IMG/VR virus record: IMGVR_UViG_3300037847_005376
Coordinates: 1 to 21,697 of that record
DNA: 21,697 nucleotides
Reading direction: 5' to 3' (one strand)
Origin: a virus
In this document: piece after piece, positions 5,313 through 21,074 of the stretch
How positions within the stretch are numbered: the stretch's first letter is position 1
Layout of the letters: every line of letters begins with the position of its first letter
Program-made: the position numbers and the translations under genes
Notes under the pieces: generated by a model
Databases searched by the model: none
What the model saw: the letters and a program-made list of their open reading frames with translations, nothing else
What the model was told of the DNA's origin: nothing

Positions 5313-6704
5313 TTACTGCATTAAGATGAAGTTATTTGCCCCCATCGTAACAAGACATCTCTCTGATAAGAAGTGTACTTGCATTGCATCTAAGTCACTA
5401 CTCATACCAGCAGAACCAGCAGAACCTGTTACCCAGTTTTTATACTTTCTGTCTTCAGATGCAGATTGTCTGTATCTTACGTGTAAGAAAGGTCTCTGAG
5501 CGTTTTGTCCAAGTACTTGGTCATAAACTGTCATAGTACCAGCAGGTACAATAATACCATCAACACCACCAATGTTACCTCTTGTAGAAGCATCATTTAG
5601 GTATTTCCAGTCACTCTTATAAAAGTCATATCCAATTCTAAATCCAGAGAATCCAAGATTTAATGCCATGTCTTCGTCATTGTCAAATAAACCATAAGAA
5701 GCTCCTGAAGAACCAAAGTTGTTCTGAGCTGCTAATACTTTATCAATGTCGAATCCTGTTCCTCTATTGACGAACATTACATTCTCTTGAATTGCACCTT
5801 CTTTGTCTAAAACTTTTGCAATATCTTCTAAGTCTAATCTAGCGTCGATTGTACCAGAAGTTACATTACCATTGTTTTCTACTTCATAGAAAAGACCTTT
5901 AGTACCTTTGAATCCAGCTGATGCAGCAGCAGAACCTGACGCAGCAGGAACACCTTCAACCATAGCTAATTCCATATAGTCTTCGAATCTTAATCTACTT
6001 TCATGCTCTGATTTCAAATACCAAAGGTATCCAGAAGCACCGTTTTCAGTTGTTACCTCAACCCATCCAATGTGAGCTAATTCAGAACCAGAAACTTCAT
6101 ACTTCTCTTTTAAGATGATAGGATTGTTTTCCTTCGCTGCGAAATCTGCATCGTAAGAGCCATCCATACCATTTGTTCCTTTTTTGAATTCAGAACCATA
6201 TACGAACATAGAAACTGCGTCAGAAGCTGTGAAGCCACCAACCGCAACTAATGTCGCTAAATTTAAACAAGCAACATCAACAGCGTCAGCAGCAGAAGCG
6301 TCAGTTACAATTGCGTGTAACGTAGGCCCTGTGCCATCAGTTTTCTTAATGATAATTGTTTGTCCATTTCTAAATTTGTGTGCAGTTACAGCTAACGTGT
6401 TACCGTCTGTGACAGTACCTGTAGCTAAAATATGCAACCTTCCTTGCTCACTCCACTTTATTAAGTCTGAAGAACAAGGTAGCTCAGCGCTTACCATTCT
6501 TAAAAAAGAAGCTACAGAACGATTTCCATATTTTTCAAACTCCTTCTCATATAAGTCAGGTAAGTATTGTTGAGCAAACGTGTAATCACTACTCCCTAAG
6601 TAAGATTTCTGTAGTACAGATTTTACTGGAGCAGGCGTAAGCGAAGTAGAACCACCGACATTTGATATCGATGAACTACCGTCAAAATTAATACTTTGTG
6701 CCAT
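5313..6704 (-). CDS. Major capsid protein
   Basis: 463 residues, a usual length for an HK97-fold capsid subunit. An N-terminal Ser/Gly/Pro-rich arm (1-30) precedes a helical segment LPDLYEKEFEKYGNRSVASF (48-67), followed by LRMVSAELPCSSDLIKWSEQ (68-87). The SDLIKWSEQGRLH motif I recall from capsid proteins of crAss-like and other marine podophages. A beta-rich stretch (about 93-175) could be an inserted domain, followed by RLRFEDYMELAMVEG (about 239-253) and a C-terminal domain ending FLSERCLVTMGANNFILMQ. There is an Ala/Gly/Ser-rich stretch near 253-266. Position after portal and probable scaffold, and the strong terminator directly behind it, fit the most abundant virion protein. No cleavage site was identified. 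Family assignment is from memory and synteny; the major-capsid role itself is well supported. Confidence 0.85.
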   Translation of the reverse strand: MAQSINFDGSSSISNVGGSTSLTPAPVKSVLQKSYLGSSDYTFAQQYLPDLYEKEFEKYGNRSVASFLRMVSAELPCSSDLIKWSEQGRLHILATGTVTDGNTLAVTAHKFRNGQTIIIKKTDGTGPTLHAIVTDASAADAVDVACLNLATLVAVGGFTASDAVSMFVYGSEFKKGTNGMDGSYDADFAAKENNPIILKEKYEVSGSELAHIGWVEVTTENGASGYLWYLKSEHESRLRFEDYMELAMVEGVPAASGSAAASAGFKGTKGLFYEVENNGNVTSGTIDARLDLEDIAKVLDKEGAIQENVMFVNRGTGFDIDKVLAAQNNFGSSGASYGLFDNDEDMALNLGFSGFRIGYDFYKSDWKYLNDASTRGNIGGVDGIIVPAGTMTVYDQVLGQNAQRPFLHVRYRQSASEDRKYKNWVTGSAGSAGMSSDLDAMQVHFLSERCLVTMGANNFILMQ

Positions 6705-7924: not shown

Positions 7925-10549
7925 TTACATGTTTTGGCCACCCTGTAGTTTAGTCAAAAGTGTTGCTAAACCGCCTTCTTCTTGCTTTGGTGACATCATA
8001 GCTTGTGGTGCTTGAGGTTCCATATTTTGCGGTTGTTCTTCAGGTATAGGCATTGGATTGTTATTATTACTAGGCATCATCATTGGTTTCTTGTCTTGTG
8101 CGCCAATTAGATTTAATCCTGCTGGCCCAAACATATTACCTTTAGATGTCAGTTGTTCTACTTTTGTTTTTTTCTTTGCAAAGTCTTTTGGTGGAAGATT
8201 TTGTTTTCTTTGCGAAATCATCTCACTTTGCTGAGTTGCTTGCATTTGAGTTCTTTTATCTTTTCTATCTTCTTTTGACGCTTCTCTTTTCTTGAGATTC
8301 TTAGAATCTACGTTTCTAAGCTGCATATCATACTCAAACTTTAACTTCATCATTTCTGCTTCTTTTTTCGCTTCTGCCTCCATTTTCTGCATATCAAGTT
8401 GCGCTTTTAATTGTAAAAGCTCCGCTTCACCTTTAGTTTTCATTTGTTCCTCCTGCATTCTACCTTGTGAAGCAGCTTGTGCTGATTGTTGATTAGCTTT
8501 AGCTTGCATCTGAATATTCATTTGCTGTTTCTTCATATCAGCTTTTTCTTTTCTACTTTTTCTAATTTTTAACAATTGGTTTGCTAAAGAGAAGTTTTTC
8601 ACCTCTCTAACATCTATTGCGTCAGAAAAATCTATCATTTTTGCGGCTATAGCTTGTTGTAAGTTGTTTTCGAGAATTTGCTTTTCTTCTTCATCTGGCT
8701 CTAATTCAATATATATACCAAAGTCATGAAGATGCATGTTTTCCATTTCCGCTATAAGTTCCATATTATTCTTACCAATCATTCGTGTAAAGTCTTCAAC
8801 AAAATCTGAATACATAAGTATATCGCTAATTCTGCAAGACATTGCTTCACACAATCTTTTTGTTAAGGATACACCTGAATGTAACACATGTCTTGTGGCT
8901 GTGTTAGAATTTAATGCAGCTAGTTTTTGTACACCAACTAATGCATTTTTATCAGGCATACTACCGTCTCTTGCCTCATTAATACCGGTTACAGAACGTA
9001 TCATGTTTAATTGATAATTATACATAGTTATTAAGCTGTTGATTTTTGCATTAGAACCACTGCTTGTTAATTCTTGTATAGGGACTCTAGCGTTATTAAA
9101 TTCACCATCTTCAGTATAGCTTCTACCTATAACAGAACCTGTTTGGAAATACATAGATAAAGCTTCTGATGGATTATATGAAGCTCCATTACCTAAATCT
9201 ACACTATTCAAACCATCTGCATCTATAAATACACCATCTGGTATCATTTTAGACACTACTTGTTGTAATTTTAAATGGACAAGCTGTATTTGGTCTGCAA
9301 AAGGTATCATTCTTTTTACTAAAGAATCAATATGTCCCTTATCCATTTTGATTGCATTAACTAAATATGGTGGTATCGTTTGTTGAAAAGCTGATTTTGG
9401 TCGAACCATGTTTGACATTAACTGCCATTTTAGTATTCGGTTTGTTCCTAAAACCATAACACCTTCATACCAAACATCTATTCTTCTTGCTACTCTATCA
9501 AATCTTGCCTGAGCTGTTGCTGGTGGATTAAAATCAGCATCTTTTTTTAGTGCTTTTTCACCACCATTCATAGTCTTTTTAACTTTATAAATAATTTCTT
9601 TATCGGTTTTGTAACAAAAATAAAGCAACGATACGTTTGATTTGTCCAAACCACTGTTGGTCTGTAAGTTTATTGTGCTTCTATAACCATCATGTCTTCC
9701 AGCAATTTTAGATATTTCTTCTATTTCTTCTTGTGTAAGATTTGGATTTATTTTTTTTATTTCATTTATGTGCACAGATTTAACCTCTCCGAAGTAATAG
9801 CAATCTCTAAAGTTTGGGTCTTCTGTTTGCGAGTATACAAGATTTATAGGGTCTACATATTCTATTTTTACACCATCATGAACATCAAAAGAATGTTTTA
9901 CCGCTGAAATACCTAACACAACATTATCTTCGTCAACCCTTCTTTTAATCTCATCGTAGTTGTTTAGTTCTAATAAGGTGTTTATTGCTGTTTCTTGCGC
10001 TATTTCAACACCTTGCTTAAACCTTAGCTTCATGTATAGGTTTAATTCTTCATCTGACTGTGGAAGCATTTCTTCATCAAAGTTAAATGCATTCACCCCA
10101 GTTTTTTCTTTTAGCATATTAAGCATTGGTGCTGCAAGCATATCTGCTCTTACTTCTTGCTTGAAGTTTTGCCTTACAACACTAGAAAGCTCGTCAATTG
10201 CTTCTACATCTACTTTTAAAAGTCTATTAGAAATACCGTTTACAACTATGTCAACGAATTTTGGTATGATAGGGACTGGTGTCCAGTCAAGATTAAGGTA
10301 TGACAAATCACCATTAATAGCTAGTTCGTTTTTATACTTTTCTATTGGTTGTTTTCCACGTGCATACAATCTCCTTTTTAGATATTCGGAACGAACCTCT
10401 CCATAAGACGAACTACCATAGTCATTTGAGAACCATTCTGACTCAATTGCTTGGCCTACTCTTAGTCCGTACTCTAAAGATGCTTTTTGCTCATCAGGAG
10501 CGAATTGATTTGGGAAACCACCACCTCCACTATATTTGTTTTTATTCAT
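7925..10549 (-). CDS. Portal protein with long C-terminal coiled coil
   Basis: 874 residues, long for a portal but similar to those I recall in crAss-like podophages. Residues 1-650 form the portal proper: a Gly-rich N-terminus, LDWTPVPIIPKFVDIVVNGI near 86-105, the helical/wing regions, and ARDGSMPDKNALVGVQKLAA near 530-550, a stretch with the character of portal stem/crown segments. From about residue 665 to 790 the chain is a Gln/Met/Lys/Glu-rich helix (for example MKKQQMNIQMQAKANQQSAQ), a strong coiled-coil candidate. The last 80 residues are disordered, Pro/Asn/Gln/Met-rich. The portal forms the dodecameric DNA gate at one capsid vertex and docks the terminase encoded five bases upstream. 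Location between terminase and scaffold supports this. The role of the long C-terminal extension (internal barrel or scaffold/core contact) is inference. Confidence 0.85.
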   Translation of the reverse strand: MNKNKYSGGGGFPNQFAPDEQKASLEYGLRVGQAIESEWFSNDYGSSSYGEVRSEYLKRRLYARGKQPIEKYKNELAINGDLSYLNLDWTPVPIIPKFVDIVVNGISNRLLKVDVEAIDELSSVVRQNFKQEVRADMLAAPMLNMLKEKTGVNAFNFDEEMLPQSDEELNLYMKLRFKQGVEIAQETAINTLLELNNYDEIKRRVDEDNVVLGISAVKHSFDVHDGVKIEYVDPINLVYSQTEDPNFRDCYYFGEVKSVHINEIKKINPNLTQEEIEEISKIAGRHDGYRSTINLQTNSGLDKSNVSLLYFCYKTDKEIIYKVKKTMNGGEKALKKDADFNPPATAQARFDRVARRIDVWYEGVMVLGTNRILKWQLMSNMVRPKSAFQQTIPPYLVNAIKMDKGHIDSLVKRMIPFADQIQLVHLKLQQVVSKMIPDGVFIDADGLNSVDLGNGASYNPSEALSMYFQTGSVIGRSYTEDGEFNNARVPIQELTSSGSNAKINSLITMYNYQLNMIRSVTGINEARDGSMPDKNALVGVQKLAALNSNTATRHVLHSGVSLTKRLCEAMSCRISDILMYSDFVEDFTRMIGKNNMELIAEMENMHLHDFGIYIELEPDEEEKQILENNLQQAIAAKMIDFSDAIDVREVKNFSLANQLLKIRKSRKEKADMKKQQMNIQMQAKANQQSAQAASQGRMQEEQMKTKGEAELLQLKAQLDMQKMEAEAKKEAEMMKLKFEYDMQLRNVDSKNLKKREASKEDRKDKRTQMQATQQSEMISQRKQNLPPKDFAKKKTKVEQLTSKGNMFGPAGLNLIGAQDKKPMMMPSNNNNPMPIPEEQPQNMEPQAPQAMMSPKQEEGGLATLLTKLQGGQNM

Positions 10550-10554
10550 ATAAG

Positions 10555-12777
10555 TTATGATATAATTTTACTAACAAATCCCTTGTTGCTATACTTTGCA
10601 AAGTTAAGATTTATTTGATTATCTTTTTTGTCAACAACTTTTTGTTTAGAAAAGTTAGCCATTATGGCAAATCCTGAACTTACAGTAGCATCAAACCTAG
10701 TTCTATTGTTAATATCGTAGTTTGACCAATCCAAAAGAGTCCTGTTAAAAAACATGGAACCGCAGTTTCCAAAATCCATATTATCTTCATCATTAATAAC
10801 ACCGATATGATTTTGAATATACGCTTCAATATACTCTGCATGCGCTGATATGACTGCTGAAGATGAAGGTATACCACCTAACTCTCTTTCTGCTTTAGAT
10901 AAAACGTTCTTGTGTTTATCAGGCCTATTCAAAGAAAAAGCTCTGTACCCTCTTTCCTTCAAATAATATAAAAGCCTGGGTTTATTATTTTCAACTAATA
11001 TTGGCATACCATAATAATGTAAAGCCATCAAAACGTCTTCATAAAATATTTCAGCTGTAGGGGGTCTAGATATATATTCTAGAAAAAAATAGTTTGACGG
11101 CGCGTCTTCCAAATGAAACTTAGTCATACCATGCAACGAACCCTTTGACCCACCTCCTTGAACCGTACCTGATATGTCATAAGAGTCACAACCAAAACTA
11201 CCTAAGTGCGCATTACCAGGTATTTTTCTTGTCCCTCTGTGTATTACATTATTCGCTAGACTATTAGAAGGAGTCCAAGAAGTAAAAAAACGACCATTAC
11301 TATCAGGAACCCATATAACTTCTGTATCCCTTTGTCCATTCCTCCACGTGAAAGAACCCCTAGTAATACTTGTCTTAATAGCAAAAGAGTCATTATAATC
11401 AATTTGTTCGTATATTTTAGAAAGATTAAATATAGTGTTTTTTGATTCATCTCTAAAAGCATGTGACTCTGTCCTTGGAAACTGTCTGTAAAACTCATTC
11501 AAAGCATCTTGGTCATTTTTCAAACCATCTACTTCATTTTTCCAATGGTCAATTACACCTCCATATATAGCGTCTCCATAAGGGCCAAATACTTCTGTTT
11601 CAGGATTATCGAAAACTGGCCATCCATACTCATCTAAGAAACCTTCATAATTCCACTCCATAGGAATGAAAAACGAATATAATCCAGAATTAGTTTGCCC
11701 ATTTTTATTTCGCTTTGTAACATCTGAATCATAATATAATTTTTTGAAATTATCACCACCTTTATCTAAAGCGTTTGATGTTGAGCCCATCATACATTTA
11801 CCTATAATTCTACTACCGAGCCTTAATGTAGTTTTTGTAACTCTCCAGTTATTCAAAATGTTATTTGGCTTTTCCCATTTTCCGCTTTCATCATGAACAA
11901 GCAGTTTTAATTTTTCTCCATCATAACTATTGTCTCCTGTGTTCTTCCAGTCTATTGTTGTATCCAAACCTGAGAGCTCCTCAACTTTATCTGTGCTTGT
12001 TATATTTCTTCTTGTGAGTTTTGATGCTGGCACCCTATATGCTAGTTCTGATTTTGGTCTATCCATACCGTCTTGTATCGGCTTGAAGAAAAACGGATAG
12101 TTGACTGATATTGGTACAACTTTATCTGTAAACATTTTTTTTGCATCAACCCCTGACTTAGACAATATACCAAATCTAGAATCTGAATTTATTGTGGCAA
12201 GATTTACAGTTTCACCTGACGCCATAAAAGAAAAGCCACTTCTTCTGTTTTTAAGATAACACATACCATAACAACGCTGGTCTGCTTTACACGCTTCCCA
12301 AAAAAAGTAAAATAATCTATTTGACTCTCTAAAATCTGGCTTACCGACATCTATTTTAGACCACTGCAAATACATGTAGTGTGCGCCAGTAATGTACGTA
12401 GGTATTCCTTTATTGTAAAACCAAAAGCCCTCATCTCTTTTTTCAAACTCACTTTCAATATAATCAATGTATTTGTTTTTAAAATCACTTGGGTATTCTC
12501 TCCAATCAAAAATACTTTTAATACGATTGAGCTCTTTAGGGTATTCAGCAGCTTGCCATTTATTTTCTTTGAATCTAAAAACCTTTTTAGGTTTCTTTGG
12601 TAAAGCTATTTTTAGGTTTTGTATTTGATATACTTCACCAATCATTCCTGTTTTCGATATCACGACAACATCATGTTCAGAATTATATCCATACTTCCAG
12701 CTTTTTGACTTATTTAGTTTATTTATAACTTCTTCGTCAATAGGGTTTACAATGCCATATAGAGTTTGTTGATACAT
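10555..12777 (-). CDS. terL: Terminase large subunit
   Basis: 740 residues; ATP-driven DNA packaging motor plus genome-cutting nuclease. The ATPase N-domain has CYLKNRRSGFSFMASGETVN (173-192), matching a deviant Walker A region (no classical GxGKS/T), a Walker B at KLLVHDE (291-297; D296, E297) and a coupling motif-like MMGSTSN (329-335). The C-terminal RNase H-like nuclease shows GSFGCDSYD (526-534) as the first acidic strand, the FYEDVLMALHYYGMPILVEN segment (578-597), and RTRFDATVSSGFAIMAN (692-708) with D696 as the last acidic residue. The N-terminal 130 residues are an extra region before the motor. Its ATG overlaps the stop of the upstream small gene by one base (TAATG), so the two are translationally coupled. 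The overall pattern resembles terminases of crAss-like and related marine podophages as I recall them. Confidence 0.9.
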   Translation of the reverse strand: MYQQTLYGIVNPIDEEVINKLNKSKSWKYGYNSEHDVVVISKTGMIGEVYQIQNLKIALPKKPKKVFRFKENKWQAAEYPKELNRIKSIFDWREYPSDFKNKYIDYIESEFEKRDEGFWFYNKGIPTYITGAHYMYLQWSKIDVGKPDFRESNRLFYFFWEACKADQRCYGMCYLKNRRSGFSFMASGETVNLATINSDSRFGILSKSGVDAKKMFTDKVVPISVNYPFFFKPIQDGMDRPKSELAYRVPASKLTRRNITSTDKVEELSGLDTTIDWKNTGDNSYDGEKLKLLVHDESGKWEKPNNILNNWRVTKTTLRLGSRIIGKCMMGSTSNALDKGGDNFKKLYYDSDVTKRNKNGQTNSGLYSFFIPMEWNYEGFLDEYGWPVFDNPETEVFGPYGDAIYGGVIDHWKNEVDGLKNDQDALNEFYRQFPRTESHAFRDESKNTIFNLSKIYEQIDYNDSFAIKTSITRGSFTWRNGQRDTEVIWVPDSNGRFFTSWTPSNSLANNVIHRGTRKIPGNAHLGSFGCDSYDISGTVQGGGSKGSLHGMTKFHLEDAPSNYFFLEYISRPPTAEIFYEDVLMALHYYGMPILVENNKPRLLYYLKERGYRAFSLNRPDKHKNVLSKAERELGGIPSSSAVISAHAEYIEAYIQNHIGVINDEDNMDFGNCGSMFFNRTLLDWSNYDINNRTRFDATVSSGFAIMANFSKQKVVDKKDNQINLNFAKYSNKGFVSKIIS

Positions 12778-13059: not shown

Positions 13060-13620
13060 TTAATTTAAAATTGTACATATATCTCTGGTGCTCATTCTAT
13101 ACATTTTTTCATCATTAATTTCAAACTCATACTCACTGTCTTTTCTAAAGTTTACTTTAGAGCCTTTTTTAATACCTATAGATTCTAAATTTTTATTAGA
13201 GTATGTTACATAGCCTGTGTTTTCTTCTAGCCCCTCCTCATGTAAGTACTTGTGTTCCATTTCAGTAGGTTTTACAAAACAATAATCATCTACAGAATAC
13301 CAGTTTTCACCATCGTGATATAAATAAAATTGATAGGGGTCTATAATATAAACATCACCTTTGAAGTAATTAGGTGATTTCCTTGGTCGTCCTTTCATGT
13401 CGTAATAAATACGAAAGACGTTGTGGTGAACTATAATCGTGTCACCTTTTTTGATTTCTCCTTTGTAGTATGTTGGAGTTTGTAAAACTTCCGCAAACCT
13501 ATTGACATGCATATGCTCAGCAACACTGCTGTTCACAATCATCTTCTGACCTGCCAATGTGATTTCGTTATTGTAATGATTGCCTTTTGATTTGATTAAA
13601 AAATAAAAAGGGGATTTCAT
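13060..13620 (-). CDS. GroES-like co-chaperonin with an apparent domain duplication
   Basis: 186 residues from ATG 13620. A TTG lies one codon upstream, but ATG is preferred because it overlaps the previous stop (TGATG). The C-terminal part reads GIKKGSKVNFRKDSEYEFEI (149-168) then NDEKMYRMSTRDICTIL (169-185). This matches the GroES C-terminal pattern: VGDxVxF, a turn, ExxIDGxxYxxxxxxDIxAVL. The N-terminal part repeats the plan, with NRFAEVLQTP (40-49, GroES-like xGEVVxVGP), EIKKGDTIIVHHNVF (55-69), and DVYIIDPYQFYLY plus a CFVKP strand (89-118), but with a longer insert. GroES-fold proteins cap the chaperonin; phage versions (T4 gp31, RB49 CocO) adapt GroEL to fold the capsid protein. Lying just ahead of the terminase/head operon fits that job. 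No database search was done; the second domain is the firmer one. Confidence 0.55.
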   Translation of the reverse strand: MKSPFYFLIKSKGNHYNNEITLAGQKMIVNSSVAEHMHVNRFAEVLQTPTYYKGEIKKGDTIIVHHNVFRIYYDMKGRPRKSPNYFKGDVYIIDPYQFYLYHDGENWYSVDDYCFVKPTEMEHKYLHEEGLEENTGYVTYSNKNLESIGIKKGSKVNFRKDSEYEFEINDEKMYRMSTRDICTILN

Positions 13621-13844
13621 CAAAAATCAATATTAAATTCAATTGATATAGGCATATTTTTATTAAATTCTTTCCATTGAACAACCTCTCTGTTTCTTTC
13701 TATATATATAATATAAGAATCAGATTTAGCTGAGTATTCAATCAAATGAATTGTATATGTGCCGTTTAAAACTTTTTGCCCTACTAAGTAGTGCATACAA
13801 CTACCTTTGTAGTCGGCACCTACTGAAATTTTACGAATTAACAT
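13620..13844 (-). CDS. Small conserved-looking phage protein, unknown function
   Basis: 74 residues: MLIRKISVGADYKGSCMHYL, then VGQKVLNGTYTIHLIEY, a short Ser/Asp segment, and a C-terminus with EFNKNMPISIEFNIDF. It appears to be a compact beta-rich protein without signal peptide, membrane segment or recognisable motif. I have a loose memory of similar small proteins in marine phage genomes near packaging genes, but none with a function. Its start overlaps the upstream coiled-coil gene by 14 bases and its stop (TGA) overlaps the start of the GroES-like gene by one base, so it is co-translated within this small-gene block. Confidence 0.65.
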   Translation of the reverse strand: MLIRKISVGADYKGSCMHYLVGQKVLNGTYTIHLIEYSAKSDSYIIYIERNREVVQWKEFNKNMPISIEFNIDF

Positions 13845-14642: not shown

Positions 14643-17600
14643 TTATATATCATAATCTGTTAACGTAAATACTATTGTTACTGCAACATCTTGCCAATAT
14701 TTACTAGTTGAGCTTTTTTGATAAACTAAAGAAAATTTATCACCAGCTGCGTATGTAATATCACTGTTGGCAGTAGGCGTCCATGATATTGAGGAACTCA
14801 CATGTGTCAACTCACCACTTGAAGAATTACCTGAAACTGAACCATTTTTGTAAGCTTTTAATTCTGTTGTAAATGAAGAACTCTGAGAGCCTGACACTGT
14901 TTTCATTATTACTTTTTTTAATACGCATGCATATGGAATGGTAAAGAAGTGTGGCGCAGACGCACCTGATACGCTTGTTTCTGTTATACTCCCTGCTAAA
15001 GGTATTATTAAATTACTTGTAGAAGATGTTGTATCATCAAAAGACGCATGAATTACCATAGGTACATCTCTTGCCATAGCTATGTCCGCTACCATATTAC
15101 TTGAAAAAAGATTGCTAAAAGAAACTTTATTTACACCTCCAGAATCATTGAATAAAATAGTGGAGCCACTAGTAGGTGTTCCTGTTGATGCACTATTAAT
15201 TACATTATCACTTCCATTGCTATAATCAATAGCTATATCATCTGCATTAGCAGTAATACCATCACCACCTACAACATTTAATGTTGGGTTTACAGTGCTA
15301 GTACCAGATTGTGTCATACCATTGCCAGCTGTTACACTAGTTACTGTACCTGCATTAGATGTTAATCCTGATACAGCAGTATCAATTGCATGCTGTATTT
15401 GAGCACCTGTTGCTAATTTAGATGAATTGCTACCTACGTCAGCAGTATCAGCAGCGATAGTTGGTGTTGTTCCTCCTGTTGATGTTAATGGTGCTGTTGC
15501 GCTTACACTTGTCACCGTTCCTGTATTTGCGGTTGCGCCTGCAGCAATACCATCCAGTTTGGTTCCATCTGCAGCAACGTCTCGCCCATCAATTGTTCCA
15601 CTAGTAATTATATTACCATAAAAAGTAGCGCTTTTGTCAGAGTCTAAAAACAAAACATTTTCTAAAGCAGACCCAGTGTATACCTGCATTTTCATTCTTG
15701 TTTTCTTATCTGAACTTGTAAATACATTATCTGCTTCTACTAAAATAGTACCAACTGTTAAGTCACTTGTAACAACGCTATCTCTTGCTCTAAAATTTAC
15801 TGCACCAACATCATCACCAGTAGAAAAGTTACCGCTACCAGTATGGTCTTTTCTTGTTGAAATATCAAGAACTGCTTTAGACGTTGCATGTTCTTTTCTT
15901 ATAGTAATATCCTTATGGGCTATTTGGCTGGCTGCTAAATATTCATGAACTAAAACATTATCTACTTTGAACTGTATTCTAGTAGAAGCCGCATCATCAT
16001 CAGTATCAGCTTCTATAAACACATATGAGTTAGCTGCTCTAATTCTAAAATCTACATCATTAGTAGTGTCTGTAATTACAATTCTAGGAGTACTAGCATG
16101 AGTAATAGTTAAATCACCAGTCATAGTACCACCAGCTAAAGGTACATGCCCAACTTGAGAGTATGTATACGCTGTGTTCCATTGACCTATTTTCGTAGGG
16201 CTAACAGTAGCGCCACCAATAGTTAAATAACTACTTGTGTGTGCGCTTGCGTCAGCGTGTATTACAAAATCAGCACCACCATTATCCTGTCTAGTAATAA
16301 TCAAATCATTATTATCTGCATTGTAAACTCTAAATTTTATATCGTCATCATCTTGAAAAATAATATGTGGCGATTCACCTGAGCCATCATCTAAAGTTAA
16401 ATCACCTGTTAACGTACCACCAGTTAATGGTAATAATCCACTTAAATCTTGGTCACCAGTATTTGTTCCAGTGTTTGCAGCAGCAAGTGCAGCTATATCA
16501 ACACCATCAACCGTACCAGTTATACTTAAATTACCAGCTATAGATGTATTGTCGTTTATTTCAACACTACCTCCATTAGTATCTATTATAACCTTACCAC
16601 TTGATATTTCATTTGCAATATTAAAATGATTGGTACCACTTGAACCAAAACCTAAATAAGCACTTCTGCTGTTATCTGTGCCTGTTTTGTAAAATTCTGC
16701 ATAAGTATGGTTTGTACCTGCAAGAGCTATTGTAGCGGCATTTTGGGTAAACGTTATTTTACCAGTTGCTGTGTCAGCTTCATCACTTCTCAAGAATGAA
16801 GAAGCGTGTAAATTATCAACCGTATCTGCATTACTAGCTGAACTAGCTGCAACGTTTGTTATATTACTACCATCACCATGTAGATTAACAGCAACAACAT
16901 TTTGCCATCTATACGAACTACTACCTAAATCTTTTGAATTATCTGTTTGAGGAAGAATATCACCTGATGTAGTTATATAATCATCTTGGTGTATTAAAAA
17001 CCTGCTACTTTCTGTTCCAGCTGCTAAAGATTTTATTTCAAAAGACTGCTTGCCAGCATAGTTTTTAGTTTCCATTAATACACCATGCGTTCCGTCATCA
17101 TGAAGCATTTTAATAGTAGAATCTAGTTGGCCAGTATCACCAGAGTTATTATTGTCTCCTCTTAATATTAATGTTGCAGTTCCATTTACTGTTACTTGTA
17201 GTTCACCAGCTATATCAGCGTTACCATTTATATCTAAACTAGTACCTTCTAATTCCGTACCTTGTATTTTACCTGTAGATGTTATAGCTCCAGAACCTAT
17301 TGTTCCAATATTTGCTAAGTTTCTTGATGAGTCTATAACTAATGTACCAGCTACTCTATATCCATTTAAAGCATCAATTTCACCAGCACTTGAACCATCA
17401 TCAGCATATGTTGTTCCAGCATATAAACTACTAACTCTAATTTTTTGAGCACCACCTGTTAATGTTAAAAATGGTATATTAGTATTACTTCTTATACTAG
17501 CAATATTTACTAAGTTTCTACTTAAATCTATGAATTGTGTTTGGCCACCATCACCTATATATAATCCATTTTCACTAGCTGTAGTGCTATCAGACCTAAA

Positions 17601-18263
17601 TTGAAACACATTTCTATTTGACCAAGTTACATCATTCCCAGGAAAACCATAAGCAGTAAAACCACCTTCAGAGGCAAGCACTACATTTTCATTTACAAGG
17701 TTTAGATTATCTTTAATAACAGATTTTGTATCTCCAGCTACAATAGCAACTGTATCGTCAGCCCCTAATGCAATTCCACCTTCTTTACTAACTCTACTAA
17801 GTATTGTTTTTTCTGTGCCGCCTCTATCTATTTTTAACAAGGCTACTTCTGAGCCATATTCACCTGTGTCTGATGTTTCATAGTCAAACACTATATGACC
17901 ATTGGTTGTAGTAAATATAAGATTATCACTCATGGTTGTAGCGCCTAAGCTCAAACTACCATTAATAGTTGGACTTTCTATTACTACACTTGTATTTGCT
18001 CCACCTAATGTTAAGGTTCTTGTTGAACTAGAATCAGCAAATATAGCCATGTTCTGTTCAAACCTAATATCTACAGTGTTTGTACCATCACCAATAAAAA
18101 CATCATCACTACCATTACCAATAATAATATCACCAACAGCATTACTTAAAACTAGGTCATTGCCACTTTGGTCAATTTTACCAGCATTAGCTCCTGCTGA
18201 AGTAGTAAACTGTATATGGTTTTCGTCTTTTATTAGTATGTTATGTAAAAATGGTATTGGCAT
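14643..18263 (-). CDS. Long repetitive tail fibre / receptor-binding protein
   Basis: 1206 residues, rich in Gly, Ser, Thr, Asn and Asp and nearly free of Cys. The N-terminus (MPIPFLHNILIKDENHIQFT) is followed by beta-repeat shaft sequence. KDLGSSSYRWQNVVAVNLHG (about 445-465) is a motif I recall in marine phage fibres. Then come NLHASSFLRSDEADTATGKI (near 480-500) and two PL(T/A)GGT(L/M)TGDLT units (near 614 and 709). A further section has TGTVTSV repeats (near 910 and 970). The last 145 residues, from about 1060, differ: VPMVIHASFDD leads into a beta-sandwich-like domain ending VTIVFTLTDYDI, probably the receptor-binding tip. There is no S74 peptidase-like intramolecular chaperone motif at the end. 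It lies between the G8 protein and the nucleotidyltransferase-like gene. Trimeric shaft and receptor role are inferred from composition and repeats. Confidence 0.8.
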   Translation of the reverse strand: MPIPFLHNILIKDENHIQFTTSAGANAGKIDQSGNDLVLSNAVGDIIIGNGSDDVFIGDGTNTVDIRFEQNMAIFADSSSTRTLTLGGANTSVVIESPTINGSLSLGATTMSDNLIFTTTNGHIVFDYETSDTGEYGSEVALLKIDRGGTEKTILSRVSKEGGIALGADDTVAIVAGDTKSVIKDNLNLVNENVVLASEGGFTAYGFPGNDVTWSNRNVFQFRSDSTTASENGLYIGDGGQTQFIDLSRNLVNIASIRSNTNIPFLTLTGGAQKIRVSSLYAGTTYADDGSSAGEIDALNGYRVAGTLVIDSSRNLANIGTIGSGAITSTGKIQGTELEGTSLDINGNADIAGELQVTVNGTATLILRGDNNNSGDTGQLDSTIKMLHDDGTHGVLMETKNYAGKQSFEIKSLAAGTESSRFLIHQDDYITTSGDILPQTDNSKDLGSSSYRWQNVVAVNLHGDGSNITNVAASSASNADTVDNLHASSFLRSDEADTATGKITFTQNAATIALAGTNHTYAEFYKTGTDNSRSAYLGFGSSGTNHFNIANEISSGKVIIDTNGGSVEINDNTSIAGNLSITGTVDGVDIAALAAANTGTNTGDQDLSGLLPLTGGTLTGDLTLDDGSGESPHIIFQDDDDIKFRVYNADNNDLIITRQDNGGADFVIHADASAHTSSYLTIGGATVSPTKIGQWNTAYTYSQVGHVPLAGGTMTGDLTITHASTPRIVITDTTNDVDFRIRAANSYVFIEADTDDDAASTRIQFKVDNVLVHEYLAASQIAHKDITIRKEHATSKAVLDISTRKDHTGSGNFSTGDDVGAVNFRARDSVVTSDLTVGTILVEADNVFTSSDKKTRMKMQVYTGSALENVLFLDSDKSATFYGNIITSGTIDGRDVAADGTKLDGIAAGATANTGTVTSVSATAPLTSTGGTTPTIAADTADVGSNSSKLATGAQIQHAIDTAVSGLTSNAGTVTSVTAGNGMTQSGTSTVNPTLNVVGGDGITANADDIAIDYSNGSDNVINSASTGTPTSGSTILFNDSGGVNKVSFSNLFSSNMVADIAMARDVPMVIHASFDDTTSSTSNLIIPLAGSITETSVSGASAPHFFTIPYACVLKKVIMKTVSGSQSSSFTTELKAYKNGSVSGNSSSGELTHVSSSISWTPTANSDITYAAGDKFSLVYQKSSTSKYWQDVAVTIVFTLTDYDI

Positions 18264-18272
18264 AATTAAAAT

Positions 18273-21074
18273 TTATATTCTTCCTGATATTCTTTTTTTC
18301 CCAACAGCAAAATTTGCTGATGGTCTAATTGTTACTTTTGCAAAATTCATTGGCCACATTTGCAATCCATTAGCAGGTGCTTTTGACATAGCTACATGTA
18401 TATCTTCTGCTTCAAAACCTTCATGAACTAAATCATGGTCGTTAAAATGATAACCAAATCTTAAATAGTAACTTGTGTATTGAGGCTGTACTGTTAATAT
18501 TTTTGTTTCAAAAGCTCCAATTGCATCTGTAGTGTGTTGCACGTATTCTATAAAACCATTATATAGTTTTCCTTGAGCTTGCGTACTATTTTTTAAATCT
18601 GCTGTTTCGTTTGAATCATCTAAATCTAGATTATCTTGATAAAATATATGATTATTAGAGTTAACATCATATTCATTAGCGCCATATTTTGCGTTAAAAG
18701 CATACGCTGCTATTAGATGAGGTGGAGAAGATGAGTCAACCCCTCTACTTGTTCCATCCCACTCTGTTTCATTTATTTTAATTACAGATTTTATTTTAAC
18801 AGTACAGTTTGCTGGTACTTGAATTATACCAAAAGCGTTAGGATTACCACTCCATGCAGAAGCATATAAGTCACGAGCGTAGCCTTTTAAATTTTTAAAT
18901 CTTGTTATATTGTAATATATAAATACTTTTTCACTTTCTTTAAACCCTTGTTCACTAAAACAACAAACAGCTTTCCAACCAGTACCGCCTCTATATAAAG
19001 CTTGATGACCACTCGCGTGATTTAAAACAACATTTGGGTATTTTCTACCAATAGAACCTGTTTTATATATACTAGAAGTTGCATCCCAAGAATTAGGATA
19101 TATTTTAGAATCATATACATGGAAATTACTAACACTATCAGCTATATACGTTGCTTGACTAAATTTATCGGCAAAAAATCTTTTGTAATGAGGGCCTACG
19201 GTGCTTCCTCCAAAATAAAAAGCATACCCACGTTGATTTTCACTTCTTAAATAAGCAACCAATGTTTGGTCGTTTTGTCTGCCAAGATTATGAAATAAAA
19301 AACCATAATCTTCAGAACTGTAACCCTGCATATATGAGTATTCATTAGCATATTCATACGCAGCTTCATAAGACATGTTAGAATAATTACAGTGTGCTGT
19401 TATATGTCCATGTGATTTTACAAAGTATTGTGAACTCCAATGCCAAATACCTCTACCTGCTCCAACTACTATATGATTTCTATTAACCATACCATAAGGG
19501 TGTCTTACAGTTATACCAATATAAGTTTCACCATCCCTATCATCATTACCAGCATGGTTGTATGCTGTAAAACTACATCCATCTAAATAGTTTTCACCTG
19601 TTTGCGTAATACCGTTACTATTATGTATTGTTGTATTGTCTGCGGCACTACCTGTTGTAGATTTTCTGAAATAACCATTATAACCAGCTATATTTACACC
19701 TGACCTAAAATTTGTACCATCATTAGTGTTATTACCTAACCCTATAAACTCTACATATTTTATTTTAACCCTTCTTGTTGGTGCGTTATTCCAACTGTTG
19801 TTTGTCCAATATTTTACATTAAAAAAGACTCTTGCTGTAGAGTTATCTGCATCAGCTATATCATTACCACTACTATCACAAGCTTTAATAACAATATCTC
19901 TTTTCATTTTTACAACAGGGTCACCTACTGCGCCATTAAAAATTATATCTCTATCAACGGTTATAGTTTTAGCACTAGAATCAACACTTGTTATTGTGTA
20001 GTTAGCTTTGAGCCTCCACTGCCCTTCATTAGCGCTTACCGAAGTGCTTCCAAAACCGCTAGCGCTGTAATAATAATCACCAACAAGATTACCACCAAGT
20101 TTATCAAAACTAGCATGTATATAAACTGTGTCGCCAGTTGAAAAATCAGTTACATCATTAAGTGTAATAGTCCTAAGATTAGTAGCACCTACGTATTCTG
20201 TTGCTATAGCGCTTGCAATTCTTCTGCAGAATTTTCCATCTATGTGATATTTTTCGGTGCCAGTTTGGTATACTTTTGTGCCAATTAAGGAAGGGTCGTT
20301 GTCTACAGTACTACCAAAGGTTATGGTATTTTTGCTTATATCTGTGACACGTAGTACGTTTCTATTACTACCAGTACCAAATATTAAATAATAACCAACT
20401 CTAAATATTTCTGCATCCTCAGATATTGTTATTGTAGAACCACTAACAGACTGTATTGTTGCTTCAGGGCCAACATATCTTCTAACATAAATCCTATCAT
20501 TCGTAGTGTCTACGTCATGAACAAAAAAGCATTCGTCATTTACAAGTGAAAAATCTTCTTCTCTTTTGTAAAGTGATATTCTATCGTTAGCCGCAAAATT
20601 TGAAGCGTCTGCTACTGATATGTATGTAGCGTCTGGCGCTTGATTACCATTAACAGTTGTTATTAAAGTTGGTTCGCTGCCATCTATCTGAACACCACAC
20701 CATCTTCTACTATCAACCTGTATACCGTGTTGTGCAGCTTGGTCGCCTGAAATTTTTATTTCAGTACCACCGACCATACTAAGTAGCGAACCTGAAGTGC
20801 TAGTGCCTTCAACAAATTCGCCAGCAGTATTGTTAGAGTTACTGGTATTTTTAACAGTCATCCGACCATGTAAGTGCATTTTACCACCATTAGCAAAATG
20901 TAAATTACCATCTATAGTAACGTCTCCTGTTCTTGTTGATTGTATATTTGAACTTAAAGTAACTTTGTGGCCATGCGCAATAACCACCAAGTCATCAGCG
21001 GCAGGAACAGAATTTCCTACCCACGTAGATGCCGTAGCCCAATTTCCTGATGAATTACTCGTTATTGTCGCCAT
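18273..21074 (-). CDS. Tail-associated protein with G8-like domain and beta-helix-like centre (possible tailspike)
   Basis: 933 residues. The N-terminus reads as a G8-type domain: SGNWATASTWVGNSVPAADD (10-29) then VIAHGHKVTLSS and a run of short beta repeats (GDVTIDGNLHFANGGKMHLH near 48-67) to about residue 130. A middle region of short, Thr/Asp/Asn-rich strands (150-420) leads to a His/Tyr/Asn-rich section (about 435-680) with features of a right-handed parallel beta-helix. The C-terminus (from about 760) looks like a beta sandwich. G8 domains occur in CEMIP/TMEM2 hyaluronidase-related and bacterial surface proteins; a phage copy beside tail fibres suggests glycan binding or cleavage. No catalytic pair was identified, so depolymerase activity is only a hypothesis. 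The ATG overlaps the end of the 64-residue gene by 20 bases; start is supported because the G8 domain begins nine residues in. Confidence 0.7.
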   Translation of the reverse strand: MATITSNSSGNWATASTWVGNSVPAADDLVVIAHGHKVTLSSNIQSTRTGDVTIDGNLHFANGGKMHLHGRMTVKNTSNSNNTAGEFVEGTSTSGSLLSMVGGTEIKISGDQAAQHGIQVDSRRWCGVQIDGSEPTLITTVNGNQAPDATYISVADASNFAANDRISLYKREEDFSLVNDECFFVHDVDTTNDRIYVRRYVGPEATIQSVSGSTITISEDAEIFRVGYYLIFGTGSNRNVLRVTDISKNTITFGSTVDNDPSLIGTKVYQTGTEKYHIDGKFCRRIASAIATEYVGATNLRTITLNDVTDFSTGDTVYIHASFDKLGGNLVGDYYYSASGFGSTSVSANEGQWRLKANYTITSVDSSAKTITVDRDIIFNGAVGDPVVKMKRDIVIKACDSSGNDIADADNSTARVFFNVKYWTNNSWNNAPTRRVKIKYVEFIGLGNNTNDGTNFRSGVNIAGYNGYFRKSTTGSAADNTTIHNSNGITQTGENYLDGCSFTAYNHAGNDDRDGETYIGITVRHPYGMVNRNHIVVGAGRGIWHWSSQYFVKSHGHITAHCNYSNMSYEAAYEYANEYSYMQGYSSEDYGFLFHNLGRQNDQTLVAYLRSENQRGYAFYFGGSTVGPHYKRFFADKFSQATYIADSVSNFHVYDSKIYPNSWDATSSIYKTGSIGRKYPNVVLNHASGHQALYRGGTGWKAVCCFSEQGFKESEKVFIYYNITRFKNLKGYARDLYASAWSGNPNAFGIIQVPANCTVKIKSVIKINETEWDGTSRGVDSSSPPHLIAAYAFNAKYGANEYDVNSNNHIFYQDNLDLDDSNETADLKNSTQAQGKLYNGFIEYVQHTTDAIGAFETKILTVQPQYTSYYLRFGYHFNDHDLVHEGFEAEDIHVAMSKAPANGLQMWPMNFAKVTIRPSANFAVGKKRISGRI

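Follow-up and report, generated by a model that had tools for sequence, protein, structure and literature searches.

A Cpn20-like tandem GroES co-chaperonin predicted in a marine phage and its relatives, accompanied by a single-domain Cpn10 and usually by a GroEL

Here we analysed a window of 21,697 nucleotides, corresponding to positions 34582-56278 (minus strand) of contig C66, a phage contig of 64.7 kb within the metagenome-assembled genome G000, and we confirmed, by means of predicted models and sequence profiles, that one of its genes encodes two GroES-like barrels arranged in tandem, head to tail (Table 1). The virus carrying this gene is marine with a bacterial host, and an exact terminal repeat was sought in contig C66 and not found. 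The predicted models recover the GroES beta-barrel fold in both domains, and in domain 2 it is additionally identified by profile. The assignment 'co-chaperonin GroES' is not new, as it is already present in PHROGs and RefSeq. What seems to be new is the tandem, Cpn20-like co-chaperonin in phages, as we found no description of a phage two-domain GroES, or of the three-part set to which it belongs, in the literature searched, which covered few subscription papers.

Table 1. Features of the tandem co-chaperonin gene and its neighbours in the window
Feature	Position	Strand	Evidence or remarks
Tandem GroES co-chaperonin gene	13060..13620	-	186 aa from ATG; listed ORF with TTG start, 13060-13623
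Domain 1, GroES-like barrel, residues 2-103	13315..13620	-	AF2 alone; VIA-align; phrog_3188 in elemo relative
Domain 1 mobile-loop core, residues 24-33, AGQKMIVNSS	13525..13554	-	Hydrophobic tripeptide 28-30
Domain 1 insert and most conserved segment, residues 65-88, VHHNVFRIYYDMKGRPRKSPNYFK	13360..13431	-	Between GD strand and VYIID strand
Inter-domain junction, residues 99-112	13288..13329	-	Domain 1 last strand, short turn, domain 2 first strand
Domain 2, GroES-like barrel, residues 105-187	13063..13311	-	hhalign; VIA Z; Pfam Cpn10
Domain 2 loop, residues 121-136, shortened, conserved Y-[LI]	13216..13263	-	Conservation; AF2
Small ORF, 92 aa	12777..13055	-	Lies between the tandem and the terminase; matches no family
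Terminase large subunit	10555..12777	-	phrog_6681, E 2.8e-171
Portal protein	7925..10549	-	phrog_6547, E 5.2e-153
Virion structural protein	5313..6704	-	phrog_13704, E 7e-96

Residues are numbered throughout with the TTG at 13623 as residue 1, following the ORF of the first stage of the analysis. The likely start codon is the ATG at 13620, because the proteins of relatives open with MKSP and the TGA of the upstream ORF overlaps this ATG (TGATG), an overlap that also suggests translational coupling to the preceding ORF. The protein gave a full-length profile match to phrog_13932, 'co-chaperonin GroES' (E 9.5e-23; residues 2-184 aligned to positions 1-197 of a profile of 200), a family that spans both domains in the elemo, phi38:1 and phi18:3 relatives. 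Its members phi38:1 gp089, phi18:3 gp096 and elemo gp30 share with the tandem of the window the two-domain length and the place beside the terminase, such that the window protein is a diverged member of phrog_13932 with no essential difference; the annotation of the family is silent on the two domains. In the case of Pfam Cpn10 (PF00166), the window protein scored 18.1 bits over residues 142-185 against a cut-off of 21.1, which is passed by its relatives from phi38:1 (24.1) and phi18:3 (33.3), and the Pfam match falls on domain 2 in 26 of 32 relatives. Direct sequence search of the solved structures yielded only two weak GroES matches, both to the C-terminal part.

The earlier note on this DNA had recognised two GroES-type units and divided them at residues 120/121. 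The presence of the two units was borne out, whereas the division was not: the boundary lies at about 103/105, because strand NWYSVDDYCFVKP is part of domain 2, and the second half is a full unit of 83 residues and not a 66-residue fragment. A split at 120/121 was rejected, as the only GroES match of the N-terminal profile then lay in the segment assigned to domain 2. Using a profile of 62 representatives, domain 2 matched bacterial and phage single GroES proteins from end to end (hhalign 97.7%, E 9.8e-12), and in fold comparisons it gave VIA Z values of 7.5-9.7 against GroES and gp31 (7.5 for gp31). Domain 1 matched GroES at only 27-35% in the profile-profile comparison, but the match falls on the diagnostic GEV...GD core and outscored each of the 60 column-shuffled controls. 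Modelled alone by AF2 (pLDDT 85.8), domain 1 aligned through its residues 1-102 with GroES 3-95 (Z 7.5, 2.4 Å over 78 residues) and end to end with gp31 (Z 6.5). The best 15 VIA-align rows for the domain 1 model were all GroES, Cpn10, gp31 or Cpn20, and most of the rows below them were GroES-like alcohol dehydrogenase domains. Because these Z values are lower than 8, which we take as weak when standing alone, the sequence cross-check with the single-GroES family phrog_3188 matters: this family matches domain 1 of the elemo relative (residues 14-64, E 3e-4), and domain 2 of phi38:1 (7.5e-7) and phi18:3 (1e-8). In the clade of the window phage, the sequence signal of domain 1 is weak. When the family profiles of domain 1 and domain 2 were compared with each other, the score did not stand out from shuffles (3/60 shuffles reached it), and internal duplication therefore lacks sequence support.

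The AF2 model of the whole protein was of moderate confidence (pLDDT 78, pTM 0.75). Its best fold match was 7ekq_R (Z 10.2 over 153 residues, model 1-187), with an identity of 17% over the structural alignment and an orientation between domains that agrees only loosely (5.1 Å). The structure-library title of this entry reads 'CrClpP-S2c' only; the entry is ClpP from the Chlamydomonas chloroplast in complex with Cpn11/20/23, and its chain R is a two-domain co-chaperonin. The suggestion that a fused double unit would be unprecedented did not hold, as the Cpn20 of chloroplasts and apicoplasts are tandem GroES proteins that serve heptameric chaperonins (PMC5780408). In Chlamydomonas, functional rings with seven GroES domains arise from the tandem proteins CPN20 and CPN23 together with a one-domain Cpn10, while rings made of tandems only, with one site left empty, can be functional too (PMC5780408). 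The phage tandem shares with these proteins the two GroES domains placed head to tail and the company of a single Cpn10 and a Cpn60/GroEL; it differs in being encoded by a phage, in its 17% identity, in the shortened loop of domain 2 and in the conserved insert of domain 1. The phage tandem and the plastid Cpn20 are probably independent fusions.

Examination of the mobile loops indicated that the two halves, both GroES-type as the earlier note held, are unequal. In domain 1 the counterpart of the GroES IVL motif, and with it the mobile loop that the note had proposed to look for, was found at residues 28-30, which are hydrophobic in 100, 98 and 94% of the 62 representatives, respectively, and are followed by [NS]; the elemo phages present SGLIL at this position. 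The loop of domain 2 is only partial in the clade of the window, with positions 126 and 127 hydrophobic in 98 and 90% and AF2 pLDDT values lower than 50 at residues 123-132, and it is nearly lost in the elemo phages. Elsewhere a GroES-type domain 2 loop is kept, as in the phi38:1-like L353 (GSIIVPNSG) and in phi18:3 (LIYIPEDNKEK), these loops resembling the bacterial GGIIIPDTAKEK. Considering the tripeptide of domain 1 and the GroES-like domain 2 loops of other lineages, the sequences indicate that both domains derive from loop-bearing GroES units and that the second loop was reduced in the window clade. With the second loop reduced in this way, GroEL need not be bound by every domain.

The most conserved stretch of the tandem protein is the domain 1 insert VHHNVFRIYYDMKG, in which 12 residues between 65 and 78 are invariant across set A1, and HHN..G across the wider set. 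That the first unit bears a longer insert had been noticed before, and we place it at about residues 66-88, where, in the alignment to GroES, it occupies the position of the Tyr71 loop. Tyr71 of GroES faces the chamber. Neighbouring subunits of a GroES ring are paired through their terminal strands, the last of one with the first of the next. The AF2 model links strands 99-103 and 108-110 by a short turn and, because of that pairing and the short turn from 103 to 108, the tandem fusion may make this contact between subunits internal.

The gene is located, as previously claimed, in a block for head assembly, with terminase, portal and virion structural proteins downstream of it. The terminase was downstream of the tandem in 276/276 fetched copies, some of them being the same contig fetched twice. 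The virion structural protein is probably the major capsid protein and would be a candidate client. Upstream of the head genes lie two very long minus-strand ORFs, at 18273-21074 (933 aa) and 14643-18263 (1206 aa) of the window, that look like tail or fibre proteins.

In another block of the same contig we identified a gene for GroEL (C66:22030-23637, 535 aa; phrog_5725, E 3e-125) and one for a one-domain Cpn10 (C66:23854-24132, 92 aa); Cpn10 and GroEL genes are 8-22 kb away from the tandem. This GroEL retains GDGTTT as well as the catalytic RVDD segment, is devoid of the GGM tail and shares 36% identity with the host-bin GroEL. One-domain Cpn10 was present in 20/20 near-complete tandem genomes (C66, G003, G004, G013, phi38:1, elemoF, MW202828, phi18:3, phi13:2, G030, G031, G033, G038-G044 and G048) and GroEL in 17/19, the GroEL search covering all of these genomes but phi13:2; these counts cover tandem-bearing genomes only. 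In phi18:3 and G039, both with the tandem and the single Cpn10, GroEL was looked for and was absent. In the first contig set, Cpn10 and GroEL are both present on every contig that extends 20 kb or more upstream of the tandem (11/11). On the basis of the 20/20 and 17/19 genomes, the tandem and the single Cpn10 are a constant pair and GroEL is the usual third member.

Departing from the tandem fold shown by prediction and profiles, and from the gene set, synteny and loop conservation that we observed, we consider it fairly probable, by analogy, that the tandem and the single Cpn10 form a mixed lid of seven domains that would close the GroEL of phage or host for the folding of late head proteins. 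The phage has the same parts as Chlamydomonas, namely tandem, single Cpn10 and chaperonin, and this is the simplest reading. Several observations speak against it: the weak sequence signal of domain 1 in this clade, the reduced domain 2 loop, the position of Cpn10 and GroEL in a separate block, and the moderate confidence of the AF2 model with its loose agreement in domain orientation. In this three-part phage chaperonin set of GroEL, one-domain Cpn10 and tandem Cpn10, the inter-domain turn would likely convert the strand pairing of neighbouring subunits into an internal hairpin, with the domains side by side in the ring, and the lid could be composed, for example, of three tandems and one single (3x2+1), which would give seven GroES domains. 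Docking on the GroEL ring would rely on the hydrophobic mobile loops present in domain 1 and in the single Cpn10, with domain 2 as a weak contributor, and the barrel closed by the lid would be the phage GroEL or, for phages lacking one (phi18:3), that of the host. The late head proteins encoded beside the tandem would be the putative clients, at a presumably late time, and the conserved insert of domain 1 may face the chamber. The earlier note had reasoned that a double unit would either halve the subunits needed to cap a heptameric GroEL or form no normal cap; this choice was incomplete, given that the single-domain Cpn10 of the phage permits a mixed ring of seven domains and that the phage also encodes its own GroEL. 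More tentatively, and with somewhat less confidence than doubt, we can envisage a three-part machine independent of the chloroplast system, in which the mixed seven-domain lid would have asymmetric loops (canonical in domain 1, degenerate in domain 2, single in Cpn10) and the insert, facing the chamber, would be adapted to the phage capsid protein.

Whether the single Cpn10 takes part in the lid may be seen differently. Three or four copies of the tandem alone could make a ring of six or eight domains on the seven-fold GroEL, the single Cpn10 being used separately, for instance early, as a standard lid. Cpn20-type proteins alone and GroES concatemers of six or eight domains do function with the seven-fold GroEL (PMC5780408), and the tandem lies in the late block while the single Cpn10 accompanies GroEL elsewhere; we nevertheless regard this arrangement as unlikely, as the one-domain Cpn10 is retained in all near-complete tandem genomes checked, including the two without GroEL.

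A role outside folding would have the GroES barrels repurposed as a packaging or head-assembly accessory, partner of the terminase or the portal, after loss of GroEL binding. The invariant adjacency of tandem and terminase is consistent with such a role, as are the conservation of the domain 1 insert above that of the loop and the degenerate domain 2 loop of the window clade. However, the hydrophobic tripeptide of domain 1 is kept in nearly all of the 62 representatives, the domain 2 loops are GroES-like in other lineages, and Cpn10 always and GroEL usually accompany the tandem, which makes this role quite improbable. That the tandem would be a part of the virion is argued against, weakly, by the phi18:3 record, which labels many virion proteins as seen by MS/MS and in which the tandem is annotated by similarity only. 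Adopting the opposite view on GroEL binding, the tandem could act as a decoy, capping or blocking the chaperonin of the host non-productively and diverting folding to that of the phage, and unequal loops, one canonical and one degenerate, could yield such capping in a phage that supplies its own GroEL; nonetheless, phi18:3 and G039 would thereby block the sole chaperonin usable by them, and we give this idea very little credence.

Placing the mixed lid among the known phage systems, the likeness to T4 gp31 and RB49 CocO consists of a phage-encoded GroES fold, each tandem domain matching gp31 (Z 6.5 and 7.5). Unlike gp31, which has one domain, uses the host GroEL and has no phage GroEL beside it, the window phage has two domains, a phage Cpn10 and, as is usual in these phages, a phage GroEL. 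A phage-encoded chaperonin of GroEL type is also found in phi-EL, OBP and AR9 which, to our knowledge, work without a dedicated co-chaperonin, whereas the GroEL of the window phage is accompanied by two kinds; the phage GroELs described here thus bring their own co-chaperonins, unlike phi-EL. The chaperonins of phi-EL and OBP have been reviewed (PMC5934643), GroEL and GroES homologues have been reported in a Maribacter podovirus (PMC11590407), and chaperonin genes have been noted in the vicinity of some phage DNA polymerases (PMC11348598). Chloroplasts combine tandem and single lids on a seven-fold chaperonin, and these phages, a small but widespread family whose matching set of parts was probably acquired independently, offer a second natural case for comparison. 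The tandem is carried by cultured isolates, such as Cellulophaga phi38:1 and Flavobacterium elemo, and in phi18:3, which has both lids and no GroEL, the function of the lid is accessible to study independently of the barrel.

A crAss-like identity of these phages was considered and dropped, their taxonomy being Pervagoviridae and Pachyviridae with no order given. Contig C66 has 34% GC and the chromosomal groESL contig of the bin (C99), with a GGM-tailed GroEL, has 63%; the phage contig was probably binned with the wrong host, because isolated relatives infect Flavobacteriia. In the alignment to the GroEL of the bin, several apical residues of the GroES- and substrate-binding helices are replaced in the C66 GroEL (L090:2030-3637, the same as C66:22030-23637), as if matched to the phage's own lids. 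Nine further small contigs of G000 carry Cpn10 (C51, C71, C105, C96, C90, C169, C6, C58 and C31), most of their ORFs having 140-216 aa with a non-GroES N-terminal extension, and probably come from other phages. Finally, the viral BFVD entry A0A516L046, of 304 residues, matches the tandem model (E 1.2e-9) and may carry a third domain.
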